IMG/VR virus record: IMGVR_UViG_3300032293_001369
Span: 1 to 34,209 of that record
Length of the DNA: 34,209 bases
From: a virus
Reading direction: 5' to 3' (one strand)
Positions 2,405-33,414 of this stretch are shown in pieces. A model generated the notes under the pieces. That model ran no database searches, was not told the DNA's origin, and worked only from the letters and a program-made list of their open reading frames with translations. How positions within the stretch are numbered: position 1 is the first letter of the stretch; the number at the start of each line of letters is the position of its first letter. A program made the translations under genes and the position numbers.

Positions 2405-2725
2405 ATGTCGCCACGCTCCTTTGTTTTTAGTGTTTGGGTCTCCAACAGCAAAGACGCCACAAAAACTATCGCGGCCCTAGAGACTATCGCGGCTAATAAC
2501 TTCACGGTTCAGAAGGAAGGCGGCCGCGTCTTGGTCAGCGCCTCGATGGGCGGCAAGTCTTACAGCTACAGCCTGCCCCCTGACCAGACCGCTGGCACTG
2601 TGGCCGAGTTGGCTTTCTACGCCTGGAACCAGATCCGCAGCCTGTCGGACGCCGACCTCGAGCTCTGGCTGACAAGGAAGACCAGCAAGACCGCCATCAT
2701 GGCTTTCAACTACCCGCTTTCATGA
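2405..2725 (+). CDS. Small protein in the head-tail joiner (gpW) position
   Basis: This 106-aa protein lies between large terminase and portal, where lambda encodes the head-tail joiner gpW. A central stretch, TVQKEGGRVLVSAS at about residues 35-48, resembles the basic beta-hairpin region of gpW by eye. The protein is longer than gpW (68 aa), so the link is weak. The C terminus is helical (AELAFYAWNQIRSL). The start ATG is 16 nt after TTGACA (2383-2388), and its stop overlaps the portal start as ATGA. Role as a neck or joiner protein is inferred from position; structure comparison could overturn it. Confidence 0.75.
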   Translation: MSPRSFVFSVWVSNSKDATKTIAALETIAANNFTVQKEGGRVLVSASMGGKSYSYSLPPDQTAGTVAELAFYAWNQIRSLSDADLELWLTRKTSKTAIMAFNYPLS

Positions 2726-4203
2726 AATTAGCCGACCGCTGGAAACTTGTGACCCGTGCCTTCAACCCGAAGGCCCAGAGCTACGACGCCGCCCGGCCGT
2801 CCATCCAGCGCCGCTTTCCATACAACGCCACCGCGGTCGATTCGCACATCGACGTATCCGGCGCCGACCGTGAGCGGCTGATGAAGCTCTCCCGCTGGCT
2901 ATACAATAACGCCCCCTTTCTCCGCGGCCTCGTCAACGAGAAAGCCCGCTACTCGGTCGGCAGCGGAATCCGTCCGCAAGCCCGCTCGGGCGATGAAGCG
3001 TGGGACTTGGCCGCTGAGACTTTCTTCGAGCAGTGGTCCCGCGTAGCCGACGTCCAAGGCCGCTACACCTGGCGGGAAATGCAGCGCATCGCCAGCATCG
3101 CCATCGACCGCGACGGCGAGGTCTTCTTCCGCGCCACCGCGCAGACCACCGGCTATCCCGCCCTGCAACTCATCTTGGCCCACCGCATCGGCGACGCCCG
3201 CTCCTCGATCTACGAGCCGTCCAACCCGACGGCCCGGGAAGGCGGCCAGAACATCATCGACGGCGTGGTGGTCAATCCGCAGCTGCGCCCCATTTTCTAT
3301 CGTTACCTCATGGGCGACGGCATCGACCCATCGTCCCGCTTCGAGGACATCCCTGCCCAGCAACTCATCCACGTCGGCGAGGCCAGCCAGGGCGACGAGC
3401 TCCGCTACGTCACGCCGCTTGCCCCATCGATTAACCACCTTCGAGACGTGGGCGACGCGGTCGGCTTTGAGAAGATGGCCATCAAGATTTCCTCTTACAT
3501 CGCCCTGGCCATCAAGAGCAGCAACCCCCAAGGCGCCGACTTCTTCGGCGAGTCCACCGCCAGCGTCAACGCCCAAGACAACAGCGAGGTCACCGTAGAA
3601 AGCCTCGGCAACGCCGGCGGCGCCATCCCGCGCCTCGGCATGGGCGAAGACCTGATCTCATGGACAAGCAACCGCCCAAGCCAAAACTTCCGCGAGTTTT
3701 GTGACGTCCTTCTGCGCGAAGTCTGCCTTAACCTTGGCGTGCCTTGGGAGTTTGCCGCCCGCCCAGCCGAGGCCGGCGGGGCCGCCCTTCGCGCCGTCTT
3801 GGTCCGCGCGCAACGCACCTTCGAGCAACGCCAAGCCCTTTTGATCGACCGCCTTTGCTCCCGTGTGTGGGCGCACGTCATCACGATCGGGATGCAGCGC
3901 GGCCTCATTCCGCAGAACGACAACTGGTTTAAGGTCGAGTGGCAGCGTCCGGCAGCCGCCTCCGTGGACTACGGCCGCGAGGCCGCCGCCAACTTGAACG
4001 ACGTCCGCTCCGGCCTCCGCACCTATTCGGAAGACTACAGCGAGCGCGGCCTTGAGTGGAAAGACCAGCTACGCCAACGCGCGACCGAAGCCAAGTATCT
4101 GGCCGAACTGGCCGCGGAGTTTGGCATCAGCGCCGACAGCATCGCCACCTTTAATCCGAACCCTGCGCCAGTCACCGCGCCGCCTGTGCCCGATGGCCGT
4201 TGA
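2722..4203 (+). CDS. Portal protein, lambda gpB family
   Basis: The 493-aa portal would form the dodecameric ring at the unique capsid vertex through which DNA is pumped. Family features seen are the N-terminal LSRWLYNNAPFLRGLV segment, RYSVGSGIRPQA (about residues 74-85), the IAIDRDGEVFFR strand and LQLILAHRIG, followed by the long C-terminal region PWEFAARPAEAGGAAL. These are typical of lambda/HK97-neighbour portals of about 500 aa. It overlaps the preceding gene by ATGA and the protease ORF by 11 nt, so it is translationally linked to both. Its stop TGA lies in TTGACC (4200-4205), a one-base variant of the recurring hexamer, 17 nt before an in-frame ATG (4223) of the next gene. Confidence 0.95.
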   Translation: MKLADRWKLVTRAFNPKAQSYDAARPSIQRRFPYNATAVDSHIDVSGADRERLMKLSRWLYNNAPFLRGLVNEKARYSVGSGIRPQARSGDEAWDLAAETFFEQWSRVADVQGRYTWREMQRIASIAIDRDGEVFFRATAQTTGYPALQLILAHRIGDARSSIYEPSNPTAREGGQNIIDGVVVNPQLRPIFYRYLMGDGIDPSSRFEDIPAQQLIHVGEASQGDELRYVTPLAPSINHLRDVGDAVGFEKMAIKISSYIALAIKSSNPQGADFFGESTASVNAQDNSEVTVESLGNAGGAIPRLGMGEDLISWTSNRPSQNFREFCDVLLREVCLNLGVPWEFAARPAEAGGAALRAVLVRAQRTFEQRQALLIDRLCSRVWAHVITIGMQRGLIPQNDNWFKVEWQRPAAASVDYGREAAANLNDVRSGLRTYSEDYSERGLEWKDQLRQRATEAKYLAELAAEFGISADSIATFNPNPAPVTAPPVPDGR

Positions 4204-5602
4204 CCTTCAGCCGACCGAGCTCATGGCCGAGGAGGCCGAGCGCGGCCTTGCCTGGCGCGAAGAATATAATCGCGGCGGCACTGAAGTCGGCGTAGCCCGC
4301 GCCCGCGACATCAAAAACCGCAAGAACCTTTCGCCCGACACCGTCCGCCGCATGAAGTCTTACTTCGCCCGGCACGAGGTGGACAAAGAGGCCGAGGGCT
4401 TCCGCCCCGGGGAAGATGGCTATCCAAGCGCGGGCCGCATCGCATGGGCACTGTGGGGTGCGGACGCCGGTCAGTCGTGGGCCAACCGCAAAAGCGAGGA
4501 ACTTGACAACGAGGCCGAGGGCATGGCCTCAAAGTCCAACTGGTATGCAATTCACAAAGCCTCGGACGGCGAAGCCGAAGTCGAAGTTTCTATTTACGAC
4601 GAGATCGGCTTTGGCGGAGTCACCGCGAAAGACTTCATGGCCGAAGTCAAAAAGCTCAAAGGCCAGCACATTCACCTCCGCATCAATTCCGTCGGAGGCT
4701 CGGTCATCGAAGGCGCTGCCATTTACAATGCCCTGCGACGTCACAAAGGCGGTTTAACCGTTCACGTTGATGGACTTGCAGCGTCGATGGCCTCGGTCAT
4801 CGCCATGGCCGGTGAGGAAGTTTACATCGCCGACAACGCCATGCTGATGATCCACAACCCCTGGTCGATGACCATGGGCGACGCCGACGATCTTCGCAAA
4901 GAGGCCGACGTGCTCGACAAACTCAAGAACACTTTGGTCAACGCCTATGCCCGCAAGACAGGCATGGAGGCCGAGGACATTGCCGCGATGATGGACGAAG
5001 AGACCTGGCTCAACGCCACCCAAAGCGTGGCCATGGGCTTTGCCGACGAGATCGAAGACGGCATCGAGGCCGCGGCCTCTCTTAGCCCGGCCATTGCCCG
5101 CGCGCGCTTTGACACCTTTTCCCATTCTATGGCTCGTAAATCCAAAACCATCCTCGCCGAAGAGGTCGCCGCCGAAGAGGTCGCGCCGGTCGAAGCACCC
5201 GTCATTGACGAGGTCGCCGTTGACAACTCCTCGGAAGCAATGAACGCCGAACTGCAAGCCAAGGTTGACGCCCTCCAGGCCGACCTTGACGCCAAGAACG
5301 CCGAGCAGGCTCAGGCCAGCGAGGACATCGCCAAGGAGATCGAAGCCCTCAAGGCTGAAGTCGACCGCCTCACCGCCGAGTCCGCGGGCAAGGATGACGA
5401 GATCGCCGCTCTGACCGCCGCCTCCAAAAGCGCTGGCGAGCAAGCCGCCGCGATTGTCGCTTCTGTCGGAATCGACGCCGCAACTGTGGTGCCTTCCGAG
5501 CCGGAACTGAGCCCCGCACAAATTTTCAATAGTCTCAACGGCGCCGAAGCCGTCGAGTTCTACCGCAACAACAAGCGCGAAATCCTCGCCTCCGTTTACT
5601 AA
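4193..5602 (+). CDS. Prohead protease (ClpP-like) fused to N-terminal domain and C-terminal scaffold
   Basis: The 469-aa polyprotein has three parts. Residues 1-110 form a small phage domain (VGVARARDIKNRKN, SYFARHEVDK, PSAGRIAWALWG). Residues 111-300 are a ClpP/SppA-type serine protease, with RINSVGGSV for the oxyanion loop, Ser198 in LAASMAS and His221 in MLMIHNPW; the third catalytic residue is not clear to me. Residues 313-469 are a Glu/Ala-rich coiled coil (about 350-430), as expected for a scaffold. A capsid assembly role is clear from position before the coat gene. In-frame ATGs at 4523, 5129 and 5240 each follow a TTGACA by exactly 14 nt, suggesting separate protease and scaffold products. 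ATG 4223, after TTGACC, is an alternative first start. Confidence 0.92.
   Translation: MAVDLQPTELMAEEAERGLAWREEYNRGGTEVGVARARDIKNRKNLSPDTVRRMKSYFARHEVDKEAEGFRPGEDGYPSAGRIAWALWGADAGQSWANRKSEELDNEAEGMASKSNWYAIHKASDGEAEVEVSIYDEIGFGGVTAKDFMAEVKKLKGQHIHLRINSVGGSVIEGAAIYNALRRHKGGLTVHVDGLAASMASVIAMAGEEVYIADNAMLMIHNPWSMTMGDADDLRKEADVLDKLKNTLVNAYARKTGMEAEDIAAMMDEETWLNATQSVAMGFADEIEDGIEAAASLSPAIARARFDTFSHSMARKSKTILAEEVAAEEVAPVEAPVIDEVAVDNSSEAMNAELQAKVDALQADLDAKNAEQAQASEDIAKEIEALKAEVDRLTAESAGKDDEIAALTAASKSAGEQAAAIVASVGIDAATVVPSEPELSPAQIFNSLNGAEAVEFYRNNKREILASVY
5129..5602 (+). CDS. Internal in-frame scaffold product (lambda Nu3-like arrangement)
   Basis: An in-frame ATG at 5129 would give a 157-aa protein starting MARKSKTIL, made only of the acidic, coiled-coil tail of the protease ORF. 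TTGACA at 5109-5114 sits 14 nt before it. A second in-frame ATG at 5240 has TTGACA at 5220-5225, also 14 nt before, and would give 120 aa. In lambda the scaffold Nu3 is made from a start inside protease gene C, so the architecture has precedent. The coiled coil, the basic first residues and the start motif are seen in the sequence; actual internal initiation is inferred. Confidence 0.6.
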   Translation: MARKSKTILAEEVAAEEVAPVEAPVIDEVAVDNSSEAMNAELQAKVDALQADLDAKNAEQAQASEDIAKEIEALKAEVDRLTAESAGKDDEIAALTAASKSAGEQAAAIVASVGIDAATVVPSEPELSPAQIFNSLNGAEAVEFYRNNKREILASVY

Positions 5603-5606
5603 TTTT

Positions 5607-6503
5607 ATGGCAACCATCAACTCCAGCCTCAACGACAAGCTCATCGCCCAAGCGGCGCTTGAAGCCTTCACCGCGGACCTCGAGCCGCTCTCCGTTTTCA
5701 CGACCTCGTACTCCAACGAAGTCGTGCGCCGGGGCGCTTCGGTCGAAGTTCCGCTCATTGCTAACCTCACCGCGACCACATTTAACGACTCATACGAAGT
5801 CGACGGCGGCACGATGAACAAGGTCACGATCAGCGTGGACACCCACAAGATCGTTACCGTCTCCATCTCGGACACCGAATACAGCAAGTCTTCAGTGGCC
5901 GAAGTGACCAAGTTCGCCACCCAGCAGGGCCGCGCCCTGGCTCAGTCGGTGCTGACTTCGTTCTACAACCTCTTCGTCACCACGGCCTCCAGCGCCGCGC
6001 AGTTCAGCGCGACCTTGACCAACCTGTCCGCGTTCACCATCACGAACGCCCGCAGCCTCCGCAAGGCGCTCTCCGACGAGAAGGCTCCAATCAGCGACCG
6101 CGCGCTTATCCTCAACACGACCCTCTACGACAGCCTTCTGTCGCAGTCCGGCCTGTTGGATGCTTCTGCCTTCGGCGCCCGTGACGTCATCAGCGAAGGC
6201 CGCGTTCCCCGCGTCCTCGGCATGAACGTCTACGAGAGCATGATCCTCCCGACCAACAGCATCACGCTGTCGGCCCTGGCGGTTCATCCCTCGGCCGCAG
6301 CCATCGCCGTCCGCGCCCTCGAGCCCCAAGCCCCCAGCGAATACCTGGCGGCCACGGTGGTCACCGAGCCCATGAGCGGCCTGACCCTCGGCTATCGCCG
6401 GCATTACAACCCTTCGAGCGGCAAGCACTTCGTTTCTTTCGAGTGCGTGTTCGGAGCCTCCCGCGCCATCACCGGCGCCGCGAAGCTCGGCCTCGGAGCG
6501 TAA
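5607..6503 (+). CDS. Major capsid (coat) protein
   Basis: The 298-aa protein lies directly after the protease/scaffold, 4 nt downstream, and is followed by a strong terminator, the usual setting for the main coat gene. It starts with a flexible N-terminal arm, then SVEVPLIANLTATTF, a long helix (ATQQGRALAQSVLTSFYNLF) and ALILNTTLYDSLL, consistent with the spine helix and P-domain of an HK97-like fold. The late part GRVPRVLGMNVYES is typical of coat proteins. No catalytic motif is visible. No separate decoration gene (gpD-like) sits between scaffold and coat. No SD or TTGACA precedes it; the 5-nt leader may rely on coupling to the upstream ORF. Confidence 0.88.
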   Translation: MATINSSLNDKLIAQAALEAFTADLEPLSVFTTSYSNEVVRRGASVEVPLIANLTATTFNDSYEVDGGTMNKVTISVDTHKIVTVSISDTEYSKSSVAEVTKFATQQGRALAQSVLTSFYNLFVTTASSAAQFSATLTNLSAFTITNARSLRKALSDEKAPISDRALILNTTLYDSLLSQSGLLDASAFGARDVISEGRVPRVLGMNVYESMILPTNSITLSALAVHPSAAAIAVRALEPQAPSEYLAATVVTEPMSGLTLGYRRHYNPSSGKHFVSFECVFGASRAITGAAKLGLGA

Positions 6504-6553: not shown

Positions 6554-6584
6554 CGTTTTGTTGACAAAGCTTCACCGCCCAGAG

Positions 6585-8369
6585 ATGGAGAACCCAAGCC
6601 CGCGCGAGCAGATCGCGCTTTGTGTAATCGTCGGCAACGAACCCAAACGGCTGGACCGTTGCCTTACCGAATTTGCCCCAGCCGTTAGCGAGATGGTGGT
6701 AGTCCATGCCACCGGGGCCGAAGCCAAGAGCATCAAGATTGCCGAGGTTTGCCAGAAGCACGGCGCGACCTACGACGTCTATGCCAACGCTCCGGGCAAC
6801 GAGTGGCCACACGTCGATGACTTTGGCGCAGCCCGCCAGCGGTCCTTTGACCTCGCCACTAAGCCCTGGGCGCTGTGGGTCGACGCCGACGATACCGCCG
6901 GCCCCGACTTCTCCAGCGGCCTGCACGAGCTTCTGACTAAGTTTGGTCCCGACTTCGATGCCTTCGCCCTCTACCATGACGTGGCCGGCCGCGGCATCGC
7001 CCACAACATCCGCGAGCGCCTCGTGCGGCGTGACCAGGGCAAGTGGGTCAACCGCATCCACGAGAACTTTCAACTCGTCCCAGAGGCCCGCATTGCCCGC
7101 TGTGACGCCCCGGTTGTCGTGCATCTGCCCGACGATGAACCCAAGCAGGGGAGCAACCGCAACCTGACCATCCTCGAGAGCATCCCCGAGGCCGACCGCA
7201 GCTTAAGTGAACTCTACCATCTCCATGGCGAATACATGGGCGCCGGCCGCAAGACCGAAGCCATGGCCCTGGCTAAACAAGCCCTAGCCAGCCCCAGCCT
7301 CCAGCCGACCGAACGCTACGAGCTTTGCCTTAACATTTGCGAACTGGCGCGCCCTCCGATCCTTGAGACCGGCTCGGCCGAATACAAAGCCATGCTCACG
7401 GCCCTGCATTCGGCCTACCGCACGCAACCCAACCGCCGAGAAGCCTTGGCCCTGCTCGGCGCCATGCACCTCGACCTGGGCGACATGGTGACGGCCGAAG
7501 CCTACCTCCGCAGCATGATGGCCCTGCCCCGGCCGATCGAGAAACAATGGACCCACCGCGACGGCCTCTACGGATGGGCAGGGGAGACCCTCTGGACCCA
7601 ATGGCTCCGCATGGCCGGGCAGAAAGAGAAGGCCGACCAGATCGAAACCGCGCGCATCGCCGCCCACAAATATCCCATTTCCATTTGCCACCCTACCCGG
7701 GGCCGCGCCCAACAGGCCGCCGCCACCCGCAAACGCTGGCTTGATTCTGCCGCCGATCCCGAACGCATTGAGTACATCTTTGGCTTTTCGGCTGACGATG
7801 AAGAGTCCGTCGATTTGCTCTCCCGCTTCCGCCACGCCGTCAGCCCGGCGGGCCACCTCGAGCGCCCAGGCGGGACCGCCGTCCAGAATTACAACGCCGC
7901 GACCAATGCGGCCACGGGCAAGATCATCATCACCGCTCAGGATGACGTCTTCCCGCCCCTGCACTGGGACAAGCAAGTCACCCAGGCGCTGGCCTCCCAC
8001 GTCGACGCCGACCAGCCGGCCATCCTGCAAATCCGAGACGGCTACCGCAACGACCGGCTCATGGTCACCTTTTGCGTGACCCGGCCAACCTTTGCCAAGC
8101 TCGGCTACGGCCAGCAAAACATCTTGGCCCCCGACTATCCGGGCATCTTCTCGGACACCGAGTTCAGTATGCGCGCCGAGAAAAGCGGCTTGCTCGTTGC
8201 CTCCGACTTGGTCTTCAAGCACGAGCACCCCTTCTGGAATCCGGCCGTGCCGTCGGACGATACCTACGCCATGGAGAACTCATCTGATGCCTACAAGGTG
8301 GGGGAGGCCATCTTCCGCCGCCGCAATCCCGACCTCGTGCCGCAGGCTGACACCGCCCCCAGCGCATGA
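6585..8369 (+). CDS. Two-domain glycosyltransferase (GT2-type), with TPR-like middle
   Basis: The 594-aa protein has an N-terminal GT2-like domain (about residues 10-180: LCVIVGNE for the nucleotide-sugar strand, DADD at 100-103 as the metal-binding DxD, WVNRIHENF). A helical region resembling TPR repeats follows (about 200-350). A second GT-like domain (about 363-555) has ISICHPTRGR, TAQDDV at 450-455 as a second DxD-type site, and FSDTEFSMRA. It likely transfers sugar from a nucleotide-sugar in the cytoplasm; donor and acceptor are unknown. Its place between the coat and the connector genes suggests a virion protein as acceptor. ATG 6585 follows TTGACA (6561-6566) by 18 nt; an upstream TTG at 6558 is possible. 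Its stop overlaps the next gene by ATGA. Confidence 0.87.
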   Translation: MENPSPREQIALCVIVGNEPKRLDRCLTEFAPAVSEMVVVHATGAEAKSIKIAEVCQKHGATYDVYANAPGNEWPHVDDFGAARQRSFDLATKPWALWVDADDTAGPDFSSGLHELLTKFGPDFDAFALYHDVAGRGIAHNIRERLVRRDQGKWVNRIHENFQLVPEARIARCDAPVVVHLPDDEPKQGSNRNLTILESIPEADRSLSELYHLHGEYMGAGRKTEAMALAKQALASPSLQPTERYELCLNICELARPPILETGSAEYKAMLTALHSAYRTQPNRREALALLGAMHLDLGDMVTAEAYLRSMMALPRPIEKQWTHRDGLYGWAGETLWTQWLRMAGQKEKADQIETARIAAHKYPISICHPTRGRAQQAAATRKRWLDSAADPERIEYIFGFSADDEESVDLLSRFRHAVSPAGHLERPGGTAVQNYNAATNAATGKIIITAQDDVFPPLHWDKQVTQALASHVDADQPAILQIRDGYRNDRLMVTFCVTRPTFAKLGYGQQNILAPDYPGIFSDTEFSMRAEKSGLLVASDLVFKHEHPFWNPAVPSDDTYAMENSSDAYKVGEAIFRRRNPDLVPQADTAPSA

Positions 8370-9286: not shown

Positions 9287-9320
9287 TCGCCCGCCAAGTT
9301 GACAAGCGGCCATGGTTATC

Positions 9321-10131: not shown

Positions 10132-10164
10132 CAGGGCGGGGCTCCGGCTCCGCCCTGTTTTTTT
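10132..10164 (+). terminator. Rho-independent terminator in the tail operon
   Basis: An 11-bp stem (10132-10142 with 10147-10157, one G-T wobble) around a TCCG loop is followed by seven T. The T run merges into TTGACA (10163-10168) of the next gene. This is the strongest terminator in the window, and it splits the tail genes into two expression units unless an antitermination system reads through it. Confidence 0.92.
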
Positions 10165-10181
10165 GACAGGCAGCAAGAGCC

Positions 10182-10901
10182 ATGGCGACCGTGCGACATC
10201 TTGGGCTGTTTCCATGGTGCCCGTTAACGGTCGAAGCAGAGGCCGGCAAGACAAGTCTCCCGCTGCGCCTAGCTTTGGCAGCGTGGTGGCGCGTCAAGTC
10301 CTGGCGCTTCACCATAAACTACACAGGCCAAGTTACAGAGGATGGAGAAACCTTTAGTCATGGTGAATTGCACGCTTCTTATATTGTAGAACGCGGCGAG
10401 ACTGTTATTGACGATCCAGAGTTTTTCGAGAGATCGGGCGCTTTTGTCGGAACAGAAAAAAATTTGGTTTGCGACAAGCAGGGAGGGGCGGAAACGACCT
10501 ACACCGGCTTTCAATCAACGCCTTCGGGCAGTTTTCGATTTGATTTTTCTAATTTGCCGGGCGACAACCCAGTGCAAATTTTGCAAAACAACCAGGGGGG
10601 GCTTTGGATTTTTGGCTCTTCTTTTGAAATGAACACCGTTTTAAGCGGTGGCTTCTTGGGAAATACCGTCACCGCCGGACCCAACCTTACGGAGGTGGGA
10701 ACCTTTACGTTCTCTATGTTTGACGAGGAGTTTACCTCACCGATCAACCTTATCCGGTTTCGACCCGACTTGGGAGGCGCCACTTATTTTTGCGACGCCA
10801 AAATTGAACCGCACAGTTTTTTTGCTTACGACCCCAATGATGGCGGCGGCCCGATCTACGACAGCGTGACCGGCGCCCAGCTGCGCGGCTTCCCAAGCTG
10901 A
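10182..10901 (+). CDS. Orphan protein with AT-richer gene body, probable virion protein
   Basis: The 239-aa protein begins HLGLFPWCP and has an early hydrophobic segment (LRLALAAWWRVKSW, about residues 28-41), then a beta-rich body with many Gly, Phe and Asn. No known family is recognised. From about 10360 to 10760 the DNA is visibly richer in A/T and has T-rich third positions, unlike neighbours on both sides. Together with the terminator just upstream, this suggests a later insertion into the tail operon. TTGACA (10163-10168) is 13 nt before ATG 10182. It could be a fibre, decoration or host-interaction protein. Confidence 0.75.
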   Translation: MATVRHLGLFPWCPLTVEAEAGKTSLPLRLALAAWWRVKSWRFTINYTGQVTEDGETFSHGELHASYIVERGETVIDDPEFFERSGAFVGTEKNLVCDKQGGAETTYTGFQSTPSGSFRFDFSNLPGDNPVQILQNNQGGLWIFGSSFEMNTVLSGGFLGNTVTAGPNLTEVGTFTFSMFDEEFTSPINLIRFRPDLGGATYFCDAKIEPHSFFAYDPNDGGGPIYDSVTGAQLRGFPS

Positions 10902-10923
10902 TTGACACTTCCCGCGGGTCGAT

Positions 10924-11322
10924 ATGGATATTGACCCAGAAAAAAGAGAAGCGCTCCTCGAGGCCTCGGCCCTTGGTGGCGAAGAACAAATCAACGGCAT
11001 CACCCTGCGGCCCGTCACGGCCGCGACCTGGAGCTTGCTGTCTCGGCTAAAGAACAGCTTTGTGACCGGCGAGCAAGACGGCGACTACGCCTTCGCGGTG
11101 CACTCGTTCATCTATCTCCACAGCCTCCCGATCAGCGACATCCGCCGCCGCATCGCCACCATCGATGACCTCCGCGGAGACATCTACGAGTGGATGGATC
11201 ACCGGGCGCCGGCCGACCTGTTTGCCTTTACCCCTTGGATTACCGGCCAGATCGAGCGGGTGGCCGCCACCATCACGCAAAGCGTGGGCGGTGGAGCCGA
11301 GGGCGACGGCCCAAAAGTCTAA
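10924..11322 (+). CDS. Tail assembly chaperone, short form (gpG-like)
   Basis: The 132-aa mostly helical protein (SLLSRLKNSFVTGEQ, DLRGDIYEWMDH) lies immediately before a second overlapping ORF and then, one gene later, the tape measure. That is the position of lambda G, whose products coat the tape measure during tail assembly. It ends GPKV, with the slippery heptamer CCCAAAA at 11310-11316 two codons before the TAA stop, in the correct phase for a -1 shift into the next frame. ATG 10924 lies 16 nt after TTGACA (10902-10907). Confidence 0.85.
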   Translation: MDIDPEKREALLEASALGGEEQINGITLRPVTAATWSLLSRLKNSFVTGEQDGDYAFAVHSFIYLHSLPISDIRRRIATIDDLRGDIYEWMDHRAPADLFAFTPWITGQIERVAATITQSVGGGAEGDGPKV

Positions 11323-11546
11323 GGGCTCGTCCGGCTTGGCAGCTTTGCCTCGCCGCCCGAGTCAGCAAATACGGCATCACCCTCGAGCAAGCCATGTGGC
11401 ATTTGCCCTTGGCCGCGCTCAACCAACTCATCGTATGGGACGAACTGACCAGCGGCCGCACGCCGCGGTGGATCGACAGCGGAGAACAAGGCGGCAGGGA
11501 CATCGATGCCTTGCTGGCTGATGCGCTGACAGCCCGCACGCTATAG
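10924..11546 (+). CDS. Tail assembly chaperone, frameshifted long form (gpGT-like)
   Basis: A -1 slip at CCCAAAA (11310-11316) would join residues 1-131 of the short form to 76 residues from the frame ending at 11546, giving about 207 aa. The added part (QLCLAARVSKYGITLEQAMWHLPLAALNQLI, split here as two helices) is protein-like and helical, while the same frame upstream of the slip site reads as noise, so it has no start of its own. This is the classic lambda G-GT arrangement: the T part is thought to bind tail-tube subunits. Frameshifting is inferred from heptamer, phase and context. Confidence 0.8.
11310..11316 (+). promoter_or_regulatory. Programmed -1 frameshift slippery heptamer
   Basis: C CCA AAA in the frame of the short chaperone fits X XXY YYZ, so both tRNAs could re-pair after slipping one base back. 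The stop of the zero frame follows at 11320-11322 and the -1 frame stays open to 11546. I see only a weak possible downstream stem (GGGCTCG with CGAGTC-like bases), so any stimulator is uncertain. Confidence 0.78.
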
Positions 11547-11547
11547 G

Positions 11548-12300
11548 ATGCCGGCCCAAGTCACCCCAGATCAAAAAGCCATGCAACGGTTCTCTCAAGC
11601 CGTGCAACAGCTTGGCAGCATGAGCGGCCGCCATTTTGAAGCCGTCATGCGTCACGAGCTTGGCGCAATCTTAACCTCTGCGGTGCGCGGCACTAAGAAG
11701 GCGAGCGTCAAGACCATCCGCGAAAACGCGCGCAAGCGTCCAGGCATGGTTTTAGATACCGACGACTACCGAGGCCCAGAGTCTTACACGGGAAAAACTT
11801 ACAGCGAGTCAGCCCGTCAGCGGTTGATCACTCGAGCGAACGAGCGAAGGACGCGCAGTCCGCTCATCTATTATTTACCTGGTAGCAAACAGCCCAAGTT
11901 CTACCCAAATTGGGTATGGCGCGAAATGCAAGAGAAGCGCGAGCGGCAACTCCGCGAGCGCCTTGGGGCTAGGGGATTGGCGGCCAAGATGTGGCTGCAC
12001 ATTTCCGACCAGTTGCGTCTCAACGCCAAGGCCCCGGGCTATGTTCGTAATGCCAGGCACGCCAAGCGCGGTGACTTAAAGGGAATGGTCGCAACTTCGG
12101 AAAAGGGGAGCGGGCCGCACTATGAAATTGCCTTTGTAAATGGACTGACCAAAACCAACCCACATGCCCGCGCCGGCCTAGCGTTCCGCACCGCGCTCAA
12201 TGCCCGAGCCAACTACTTCAAAAAGTCAGTGGAACTGGCCGCCAAAGGAGTCATTGCCAGCGTCTTTGACCGCTACCCAAACCTCGGACGGTATTCTTGA
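11548..12300 (+). CDS. Basic protein between tail chaperones and tape measure
   Basis: The 250-aa protein is strongly basic, with many Arg/Lys (RENARKRPG, RANERRTRS, EKRERQLRERLGARG), and ends with an Ala-rich helix. It starts 1 nt after the chaperone stop. Proteins of this sort in siphophages are often HK97 gp10-like completion factors, but those normally sit beside the connectors, so I leave the function open. Its stop TGA lies in TTGACA (12297-12302), which serves the tape measure gene. Confidence 0.75.
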   Translation: MPAQVTPDQKAMQRFSQAVQQLGSMSGRHFEAVMRHELGAILTSAVRGTKKASVKTIRENARKRPGMVLDTDDYRGPESYTGKTYSESARQRLITRANERRTRSPLIYYLPGSKQPKFYPNWVWREMQEKRERQLRERLGARGLAAKMWLHISDQLRLNAKAPGYVRNARHAKRGDLKGMVATSEKGSGPHYEIAFVNGLTKTNPHARAGLAFRTALNARANYFKKSVELAAKGVIASVFDRYPNLGRYS

Positions 12301-12315
12301 CACCCTCTTCTAGCC

Positions 12316-15089: not shown

Positions 15090-15114
15090 GCTTTGACATG
15101 GGCGGGGCACTGTA

Positions 15115-16209
15115 ATGCAGGCCCGCAAGTTCTACCTCGACACCCAGAGCCGCACCCTGGTCAGTTCGGCCGACAGCACCTTGGCCGCCGCGGACCCGAT
15201 CTTCTTTGACGAAGACGTGGAGTCCATTGAGCTCTACTTCCTCGAGCCAACCGGCGATGGCACCACGCCCTACCGCTACCTGGACTACTCGTCGAACACC
15301 GTCAAGTTTGCCGTTGGCACGACCACGCCAGCCGCCTTGCAGTTAACCTGGTCGACCATTGCCAGCGCGGTCACCGCAACCATCACTTCTCTAGTCACCG
15401 GCGGCAGCGGGTCCAACGAGCAGCAACGGATCACCCTGTCTCCCAAGCCCGTCTCCGGCGGCTTCGCCCTGCAACTCCCCAGCCGCAACGTGACCGTCTC
15501 TAGCGTCTCGGCCAACGTCTTCACCGCGGCCGACCACGGGCTTTACAGCGGCCAAAGCGTTAGCCTAAGCGCGTTTTCCTTTACGGCTTCCGCGGTCGCA
15601 AACGGGTCTAGCTATTTTGTCATCCGCAACAGCAAGGACACCTTCTCCCTGGCCAGCGTGGCCAGCGCCACCACAGGTCTGACCGCCTCAGTCACCTCCG
15701 GCGGTGGCACGGTTACCTTGTCGGCCACCACGACTGGTCAGTTGGCCTACAATGCTTCGGCAGCTGAGGTGGAGTCCGCATTCGTTTCGGCTGGCCTAAC
15801 TGTCGACAGTGCCGCGCAGATCCTCGTCACCGGCACGGCCGGCCAAGAATACATCCTGACCTACGCCAACGGATCAGCTAACCGCGACTACGACAACGTG
15901 ACGATCGTCGGCTCGACCCTGCTCGGAGCCTACGGCCTGTCGGCCAACGTGAATTTCTCCACGGCCGAAGTCGCCGCCCTGGTCGCCGCGGGAACGACGG
16001 GAGTCAAAATGGAAATCGAAGTCTCGGCCGCCGGCCGCCGGCAGACCTACCAGAAAGGCGTGACCTTAAGTGCGGACGTCATTTCCTCGGCCTCCCCGGC
16101 GCCCGTGCCGGTCGGCTCCTCGAGCTTCGCCCTCCTAGACTCAGGCTCTAACCAGTGGATCATTTCCATCGACCCCGACGGCGTCCTCTCCGCGACCAAG
16201 ACCCCTTGA
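15115..16209 (+). CDS. Large Ser/Thr/Ala-rich tail structural protein
   Basis: The 364-aa protein is rich in Ser, Thr, Ala and Val with repeated beta strands. A central region has HGLYSGQSVSLSAF, then SYFVIRNSKDTFSLAS, a pattern seen in phage tail and baseplate beta-domains where a position-type variable is mapped to a surface. No enzyme motif is present. It likely forms part of the tail tip or a receptor-contact structure with the fibre that follows. Start ATG 15115 is 16 nt after TTGACA; its stop TGA lies in the TTGACA at 16206-16211. Confidence 0.75.
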   Translation: MQARKFYLDTQSRTLVSSADSTLAAADPIFFDEDVESIELYFLEPTGDGTTPYRYLDYSSNTVKFAVGTTTPAALQLTWSTIASAVTATITSLVTGGSGSNEQQRITLSPKPVSGGFALQLPSRNVTVSSVSANVFTAADHGLYSGQSVSLSAFSFTASAVANGSSYFVIRNSKDTFSLASVASATTGLTASVTSGGGTVTLSATTTGQLAYNASAAEVESAFVSAGLTVDSAAQILVTGTAGQEYILTYANGSANRDYDNVTIVGSTLLGAYGLSANVNFSTAEVAALVAAGTTGVKMEIEVSAAGRRQTYQKGVTLSADVISSASPAPVPVGSSSFALLDSGSNQWIISIDPDGVLSATKTP

Positions 16210-18677: not shown

Positions 18678-18733
18678 CGTTTGCGGTTCGTGAATAGCAA
18701 ACGGGGCAGGCTTTGACACCCGTGCCGAGGTCT

Positions 18734-21241: not shown

Positions 21242-21283
21242 GAAGCGGCGGCATATGTCAAAGTTCTTGGTGGCAATGAGTCT

Positions 21284-32839: not shown

Positions 32840-33414
32840 TTGACATGAAACTCGCGCAAAGCATGGGAGGCGACCCCGCAGACCGAAAAGAGGCCAGCTA
32901 CTGGCCCGAACACCACGACGCACCCGAGGACATCTTTCTCGAGCGGCTGGCCGAGTTGGCACGGGCCAGCGGGGAGCCGGTGCCGGCGTTGGTCGGCAAG
33001 ATGGCGGCCCAGGCGTTTCTGGCCGCATCGAAGGAGACAGACAACGATTCCACCCGGCACGCGCAGCGCGAGGCCATTGTGCAGTTCCTTCATCAAGCGC
33101 GGGAGGCGTCGGCCTGCCCTGATCTGCAATACTTCGTTGCGTGCTGGATGGCAGCCTTCGAGATGGAGGACAGAGACGAGGACCGAACTCAGACACTCAT
33201 CGCCAAGCAGTTCAGCGTCACGCGGGCGGCCGTCTCCAAGCGGGTGGTGGAGATCCGCAAGGCAGCCAACCCTCAGACCATTGCCCGAAGCCAGAAAAGC
33301 ATCGCGGCCCGGAAAACTTATGCGCTGCGCCAGCTGATCGTTGGCCAGACGCGGACCAAGATAGACCTCAACAACCAACAGAAAGAGATGAACGAACTAT
33401 GGGAACAGAACTAA
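32836..33414 (+). CDS. Helix-turn-helix regulator, late-switch candidate
   Basis: The 192-aa protein has a helical body (DIFLERLAELARASGE, AQAFLAASKE) and a C-terminal helix-turn-helix LIAKQFSVTRAAVSKRVVEIRK, similar to sigma-like or resolvase-like recognition helices. Position near the end of the early operon suits a late regulator. ATG 32836 overlaps the previous stop, but ATG 32863 (183 aa) is 17 nt after a TTGACA (32840-32845), the spacing seen in the late genes, so either may be used. It overlaps the next gene by 16 nt. Confidence 0.75.
   Translation: MIDMKLAQSMGGDPADRKEASYWPEHHDAPEDIFLERLAELARASGEPVPALVGKMAAQAFLAASKETDNDSTRHAQREAIVQFLHQAREASACPDLQYFVACWMAAFEMEDRDEDRTQTLIAKQFSVTRAAVSKRVVEIRKAANPQTIARSQKSIAARKTYALRQLIVGQTRTKIDLNNQQKEMNELWEQN

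Follow-up and report, generated by a model that had tools for sequence, protein, structure and literature searches.

A strict TTGACA hexamer precedes three nested starts in a phage head protease gene and probably acts as a non-Shine-Dalgarno translation-start element

The virus record analysed here (IMG/VR record IMGVR_UViG_3300032293_001369; the whole 34.2-kb stretch is referred to below as the window) contains on its plus strand an open reading frame (ORF) of 469 codons, positions 4193–5602, in which the hexamer TTGACA occurs three times, each time 14 nt before an ATG in frame with ATG 4193. Do these pairs mark nested translation starts, and if so, is the hexamer a device of this one gene or of the phage as a whole? 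The pairs had been pointed out in a sequence-only reading, and their coordinates proved exact: site 1 (4503–4508) precedes ATG 4523, site 2 (5109–5114) precedes ATG 5129 and site 3 (5220–5225) precedes ATG 5240, with predicted products of 359 aa (4523–5602, protease plus scaffold), 157 aa (5129–5602, scaffold form A) and 120 aa (5240–5602, scaffold form B). No further TTGACA is present in the ORF.

The ORF lies between the portal gene (2722–4203) and the major capsid gene (5607–6503), in the position expected of a head protease, and its first ATG overlaps the portal stop codon (4201–4203). It comprises an N-terminal module of ~ 110 aa (residues 7–109 matching the separate module phrog_2859), a ClpP-type head maturation protease (residues 156–287 matching Pfam CLP_protease, E = 1.5e-35; residues 112–389 matching the PHROG head maturation protease, E = 1e-79) and a C-terminal scaffold. 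A low-confidence predicted model (mean pLDDT 58) matched ClpP chains in Foldseek (E = 9e-9), and the low-confidence model of the 359-aa product includes a 78-residue helix (residues 237–314) beginning three residues before the methionine of site 3 (residue 240), so that scaffold form B would begin at the onset of this predicted helix. As in nested protease/scaffold genes, a conserved in-frame start lies inside the gene, ahead of a C-terminal domain predicted to be helical. The 110-aa N-terminal module (4193–4522) is itself a mobile phage module, which stands in-frame before unrelated proteins in many viral contigs. It was considered as the source of site 1 and rejected, since no TTGACA marks the boundary where it is joined to other proteins elsewhere.

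Close relatives of the protease are encoded at about 50 IMG/VR loci, most of them without the N-terminal module, the protease gene then starting at the equivalent of the site-1 ATG. Homologues were checked for loss of the ATGs and hexamers, and the pairs turned out to be conserved in dozens of relatives with 60–98% protein identity, which makes the internal starts look real. Site 1 was kept in nearly all loci covering it, site 3 in all close relatives covering it, and site 2, with its scaffold form A start, in all relatives except six (L003, L190 and L193–L196). The scaffold start was also retained at ~ 40–53% protease identity, in phages (L012, L013, L207, L208, L211 and L213) that carry TTGACA before many other genes as well.

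Conservation inside the ORF acts on nucleotides, the hexamer and start codon being kept while the encoded amino acids vary. Site 3 reads GTT GAC Axx in 39 of 40 relatives, although GTT accounts for just 27% of valine codons elsewhere, and the residue after GTT GAC varies between N, T and I with its first base A constant. Site 2, which reads TTT GAC Axx in most relatives, behaves likewise (following residue T, N, K or I, first base again A). One relative (L189) has GTG as its third start and retains the hexamer, and the same replacement of ATG by GTG downstream of an intact hexamer was seen in several genes.

The equal 14-nt spacing, which the sequence-only reading said would be a striking coincidence for independent hexamers, has to be divided into two parts: the placement of the hexamers is not due to chance, but the equality of the distances follows in part from the reading frame. 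Because the nested hexamers must be read as xTT GAC Axx, another frame reading TGA as a stop, spacings within the 13–18 nt range are limited to 14 or 17. The site-3 spacing is in fact 17 nt in most relatives (19/25).

The total number of TTGACA hexamers in the window is ordinary (17 observed, 13.1 ± 3.4 expected). Their placement is not: an ATG follows 13–18 nt downstream of 12 of the 17 (binomial p = 5.6e-10, rank 1 of 3,534 hexamers, the next-best hexamer reaching 1.2e-4), and with GTG also counted and an ORF of at least 40 codons required, the number of hexamers ahead of an ORF start is 14 of 17. Besides the nested sites, plus-strand hexamers are located at 43–48 (15 nt before ATG 64, terminase small subunit), 2383–2388 (16 nt before ATG 2405, 106 aa, with the upstream TGA stop inside the hexamer; 28/28 orthologues), 6561–6566 (18 nt before ATG 6585, glycosyltransferase-like, 594 aa; 17/17), 9299–9304 (16 nt before ATG 9321, 115 aa; 19/19), 10163–10168 (13 nt before ATG 10182, 239 aa), 10902–10907 (16 nt before ATG 10924, 132 aa; 19/19), 12297–12302 (13 nt before GTG 12316, tape measure-like, 615 aa; 11/11), 15093–15098 (16 nt before ATG 15115, 364 aa; 7/7), 18713–18718 (15 nt before ATG 18734, a 53-aa ORF with equivalents of 53–57 aa in relatives) and 32840–32845 (17 nt before ATG 32863, 183 aa, helix-turn-helix (HTH) protein with a weak sigma-like match; 12/12). 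One minus-strand site (21256–21261) lies 14 nt before GTG 21241 of a metallophosphoesterase gene, and the TTGACA at 16206 is an exception, being located 21 nt before its ATG. An Rfam search of the window returned no match.

Several of these genes deserve separate mention. The glycosyltransferase-like gene (6585–8369) is located directly behind the capsid gene, a position kept in relatives. Two overlapping frames before the tape measure gene (10924–11322 and 11190–11546) resemble a frameshifted tail assembly chaperone pair. The HTH protein (32863–33414), whose own gene carries the element, showed a weak sigma-factor match (phrog_351, E = 0.002); in relatives its gene sits upstream of the packaging genes, and the protein is a candidate late regulator.

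Across seven phage contigs of 30–37 kb, 84 of 107 TTGACA hexamers precede an ORF start by 12–18 nt, including 13/13 in one contig. The distribution of spacings in these contigs is bimodal, with 16, 22, 5, 27 and 12 cases for 13 to 17 nt, respectively, a spacing of 15 nt being rare. A separate hexamer survey also ranked TTGACA first in the window and in the clade, but not in the isolated phage P8625. The suggestion that the same start element marks protease and scaffold is too narrow in this light, as most uncoupled starts of the phage carry TTGACA.

The requirement for the hexamer is strict. Exact TTGACA preceded ORF starts in 70 of 103 cases, compared with 51 of 1834 (2.8%) for all one-mismatch variants together and 3.1% for random hexamers. 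CTGACA was the only variant above background (13/80), an excess that we attribute to the GCGCTGACAG conserved upstream of the coupled 11548 gene. In divergent phages with proteases 40–60% identical, the count was 37/60 for TTGACA at 13–17 nt, versus 4/60 at 23–27 nt.

When orthologues were compared, the element followed an all-or-none pattern: 11 families have it in every or almost every member, a twelfth in 2/4 (the 239-aa protein starting at 10182) and nine in none. It was present in 11/13 orthologues of the terminase small subunit, 28/28 of the protease (site 1), 18/18 of scaffold form A and 25/25 of scaffold form B, the nested scaffold counts covering just those loci in which the start codon was found, so that losses of site 2 are not included. 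The families that never carry TTGACA are the terminase large subunit, portal and capsid genes and those at 8366, 8668, 9707, 11548, 14167 and 14817. In the window eight of these nine overlap or abut the upstream stop codon, the exception being 9707, which is uncoupled yet has no element. Genes overlapping or abutting an upstream stop thus lack TTGACA, which therefore appears to mark starts beyond the reach of termination-reinitiation.

Shine-Dalgarno-like sites showed a different distribution, being present at 5 of 9 valid starts among right-arm genes (four of 13 coordinates were excluded as not being start codons); among motif starts the figure was 1 of 14. The CACCTCCTTT tail of 16S genes in the phylum Verrucomicrobiota has no complementarity to TTGACA. 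As for rRNA pairing, UGUCAA occurs in some Verrucomicrobiota 16S loci and not in others.

The exact sequence, the spacing, the conservation at nucleotide level, the occurrence at many unrelated genes, the absence from coupled starts and the lack of a -10 box all argue for TTGACA as a translation-start element. On these sequence data we consider it likely that TTGACA 13–18 nt before the start codon is a strict non-Shine-Dalgarno start element of this phage group, specifying here a nested protease and two scaffold forms. We infer that its action is on mRNA and at the level of translation, where UUGACA would direct independent initiation at starts unreachable by termination-reinitiation and replace the Shine-Dalgarno sequence. 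A trans-acting factor, encoded by the phage or by its host, would recognise UUGACA close to where the 5′ edge of the 30S ribosome lies during initiation, although no such factor was found. The three elements within 4193–5602 would then yield the 359-aa ClpP-type protease with its scaffold domain and scaffold-only proteins of 157 and 120 aa, and a 469-aa fusion may be made in addition from ATG 4193, which is coupled to the portal stop. More tentatively, the phages may possess a start-site code of their own, in which an invariant UUGACA and a phage-specific or phage-induced trans factor bring ribosomes to late starts without Shine-Dalgarno pairing, shift translation to virion genes and set protease-to-scaffold ratios from nested starts; this fuller scheme we put at somewhat below even chances.

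Several lines of evidence bear on the host of these phages. The best match among GenBank phages is the isolated Verrucomicrobia phage P8625 (PMC4642752), with 30% identity in the portal and 31% in the capsid protein. It shares the gene order terminase large subunit–portal–Clp protease–coat with the window phage, but TTGACA at 13–17 nt before starts does not occur in P8625 (0/20). The best cellular match in a contig scan was an uncultured Opitutae bacterium, and the best match in a search of Verrucomicrobiota genomes was a 38.9-kb temperate phage contig in a metagenome-assembled genome (MAG), in which the scaffold-start element is kept. Judging by these sequence matches, the phage group probably infects Verrucomicrobiota.

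The hexamer could be the ordinary start signal of the host lineage, which the phages merely follow. That divergent phages with G+C contents of 45–65% share TTGACA could be explained by such a common host habit. A host-wide motif was indeed considered for the sampled Verrucomicrobiota, in which TTGACAN{13,17}ATG was enriched compared to a reversed-pattern control, but it was rejected as N{5,9} counts were equal in the same genomes and DNA retrieved from the phylum had no preferred spacing. Across 289 Verrucomicrobiota genomes TTGACA at 13–17 nt was no commoner than at 5–9 nt, and 258 kb of a MAG bearing a related phage (G126) contained no peak in TTGACA spacing. With 0 of 289 genomes of the indicated phylum showing the signal, albeit under an indirect host assignment, we regard this explanation as unlikely.

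It is also conceivable, though distinctly improbable in our estimation, that late mRNA is cleaved at UUGACA by a sequence-specific RNA endonuclease from the phage or its host and that the resulting leaders of ~ 13–18 nt are preferentially translated. The need for all six bases would be more in keeping with recognition by a nuclease or another protein than with base pairing, and the tight distance to the start codon would suit a short processed leader. No such nuclease was identified, however, and cuts at sites 1 to 3 would break the message of the full-length protein. In a related contig of G126 (G126:C38; L297 12484 and 14497, L298 4962), TTGACA lies 45–51 nt before the ATG of genes that include the capsid gene, with strikingly C/A-rich leaders in between, and such sites could be cut as well.

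The three sites of that contig can equally be counted in favour of a third reading, according to which TTGACA, the exact consensus of the sigma70 -35 box, belongs to many promoters, one per late gene and some of them intragenic. In addition, a few TTGACA sites of P8625 resemble promoters ~ 30 nt before an ATG. At three of them (L266 5412, 10736 and 15558) the hexamer is followed by GTATC and a GGATAC-like or GAATAC repeat, and these TTGACA-GTATC sites are possibly regulated promoters with very short leaders. In the window phage, however, the first T of the hexamer lies just 19–24 nt upstream of the start codon, and a 17-nt spacer would put the -10 box in codons 2–3; transcription would therefore start inside the gene and the start codon would be lost. 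The best TATAAT match 15–19 nt downstream averaged 2.35 of 6 versus 2.20 at random positions, so that no -10 box was apparent. One-mismatch variants are unused, unlike those of -35 boxes, and promoters would not be predicted to correlate with translational coupling. On balance we give a promoter function little credence.

Finally, coincidence or protein constraint (F-D, V-D or L-D before methionines, with the full-length protein alone being made and self-cleaved) would fit the xTT GAC Axx reading of the ORF hexamers and hence the Asp conserved at each, but is very hard to reconcile with the recurrence of hexamer and spacing at numerous unrelated genes, where the sequence is non-coding or read in other frames, with synonymous choice and first-base conservation in excess of protein needs, and with the persistence of the site-1 hexamer both where the codons upstream are part of the same protein and where they are not.

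Nested production of protease and scaffold has a well-known precedent. In phage lambda the C-terminal part of the gene for the C protease, an SppA/S49-type enzyme, also encodes the scaffold Nu3, whose translation begins at an in-frame start within that gene. The C and Nu3 proteins interact during prohead assembly (PMC3224144). The window gene resembles this pair in its conserved internal in-frame scaffold start, but differs in having a ClpP-type protease, two scaffold starts and TTGACA in place of a Shine-Dalgarno sequence. Like the latter, TTGACA sits at a short, loosely fixed distance upstream of start codons; unlike it, the hexamer has no sequence relation to the anti-Shine-Dalgarno tail, stands at a greater distance upstream and tolerates no mismatch. 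Bacteroidota are also described as initiating without Shine-Dalgarno sequences, a Kozak-like A standing at -3, and it has been suggested that bS21 encoded by phages gives preference to late phage messages (PMC6847099, PMC9723584). The present phages would share with those systems initiation without Shine-Dalgarno pairing; the portions of the two reports considered here describe no strict hexamer, and no bS21 gene was found in ten phage records. Nor did we find any report of a strict TTGACA start element in the open-access literature. While nested protease/scaffold starts were already known, the hexamer thus appears to be new.

Bacterial and phage translation-start signals are generally regarded as degenerate and as dictated by the ribosome of the host. 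A strict hexamer at uncoupled phage starts, absent from the sampled genomes of the probable host phylum, would, if true, amount to a different way of choosing start codons. The element would correct start calls for many genes of uncultured phages and expose nested products missed by gene finders, and it would offer a test for phage takeover of initiation.
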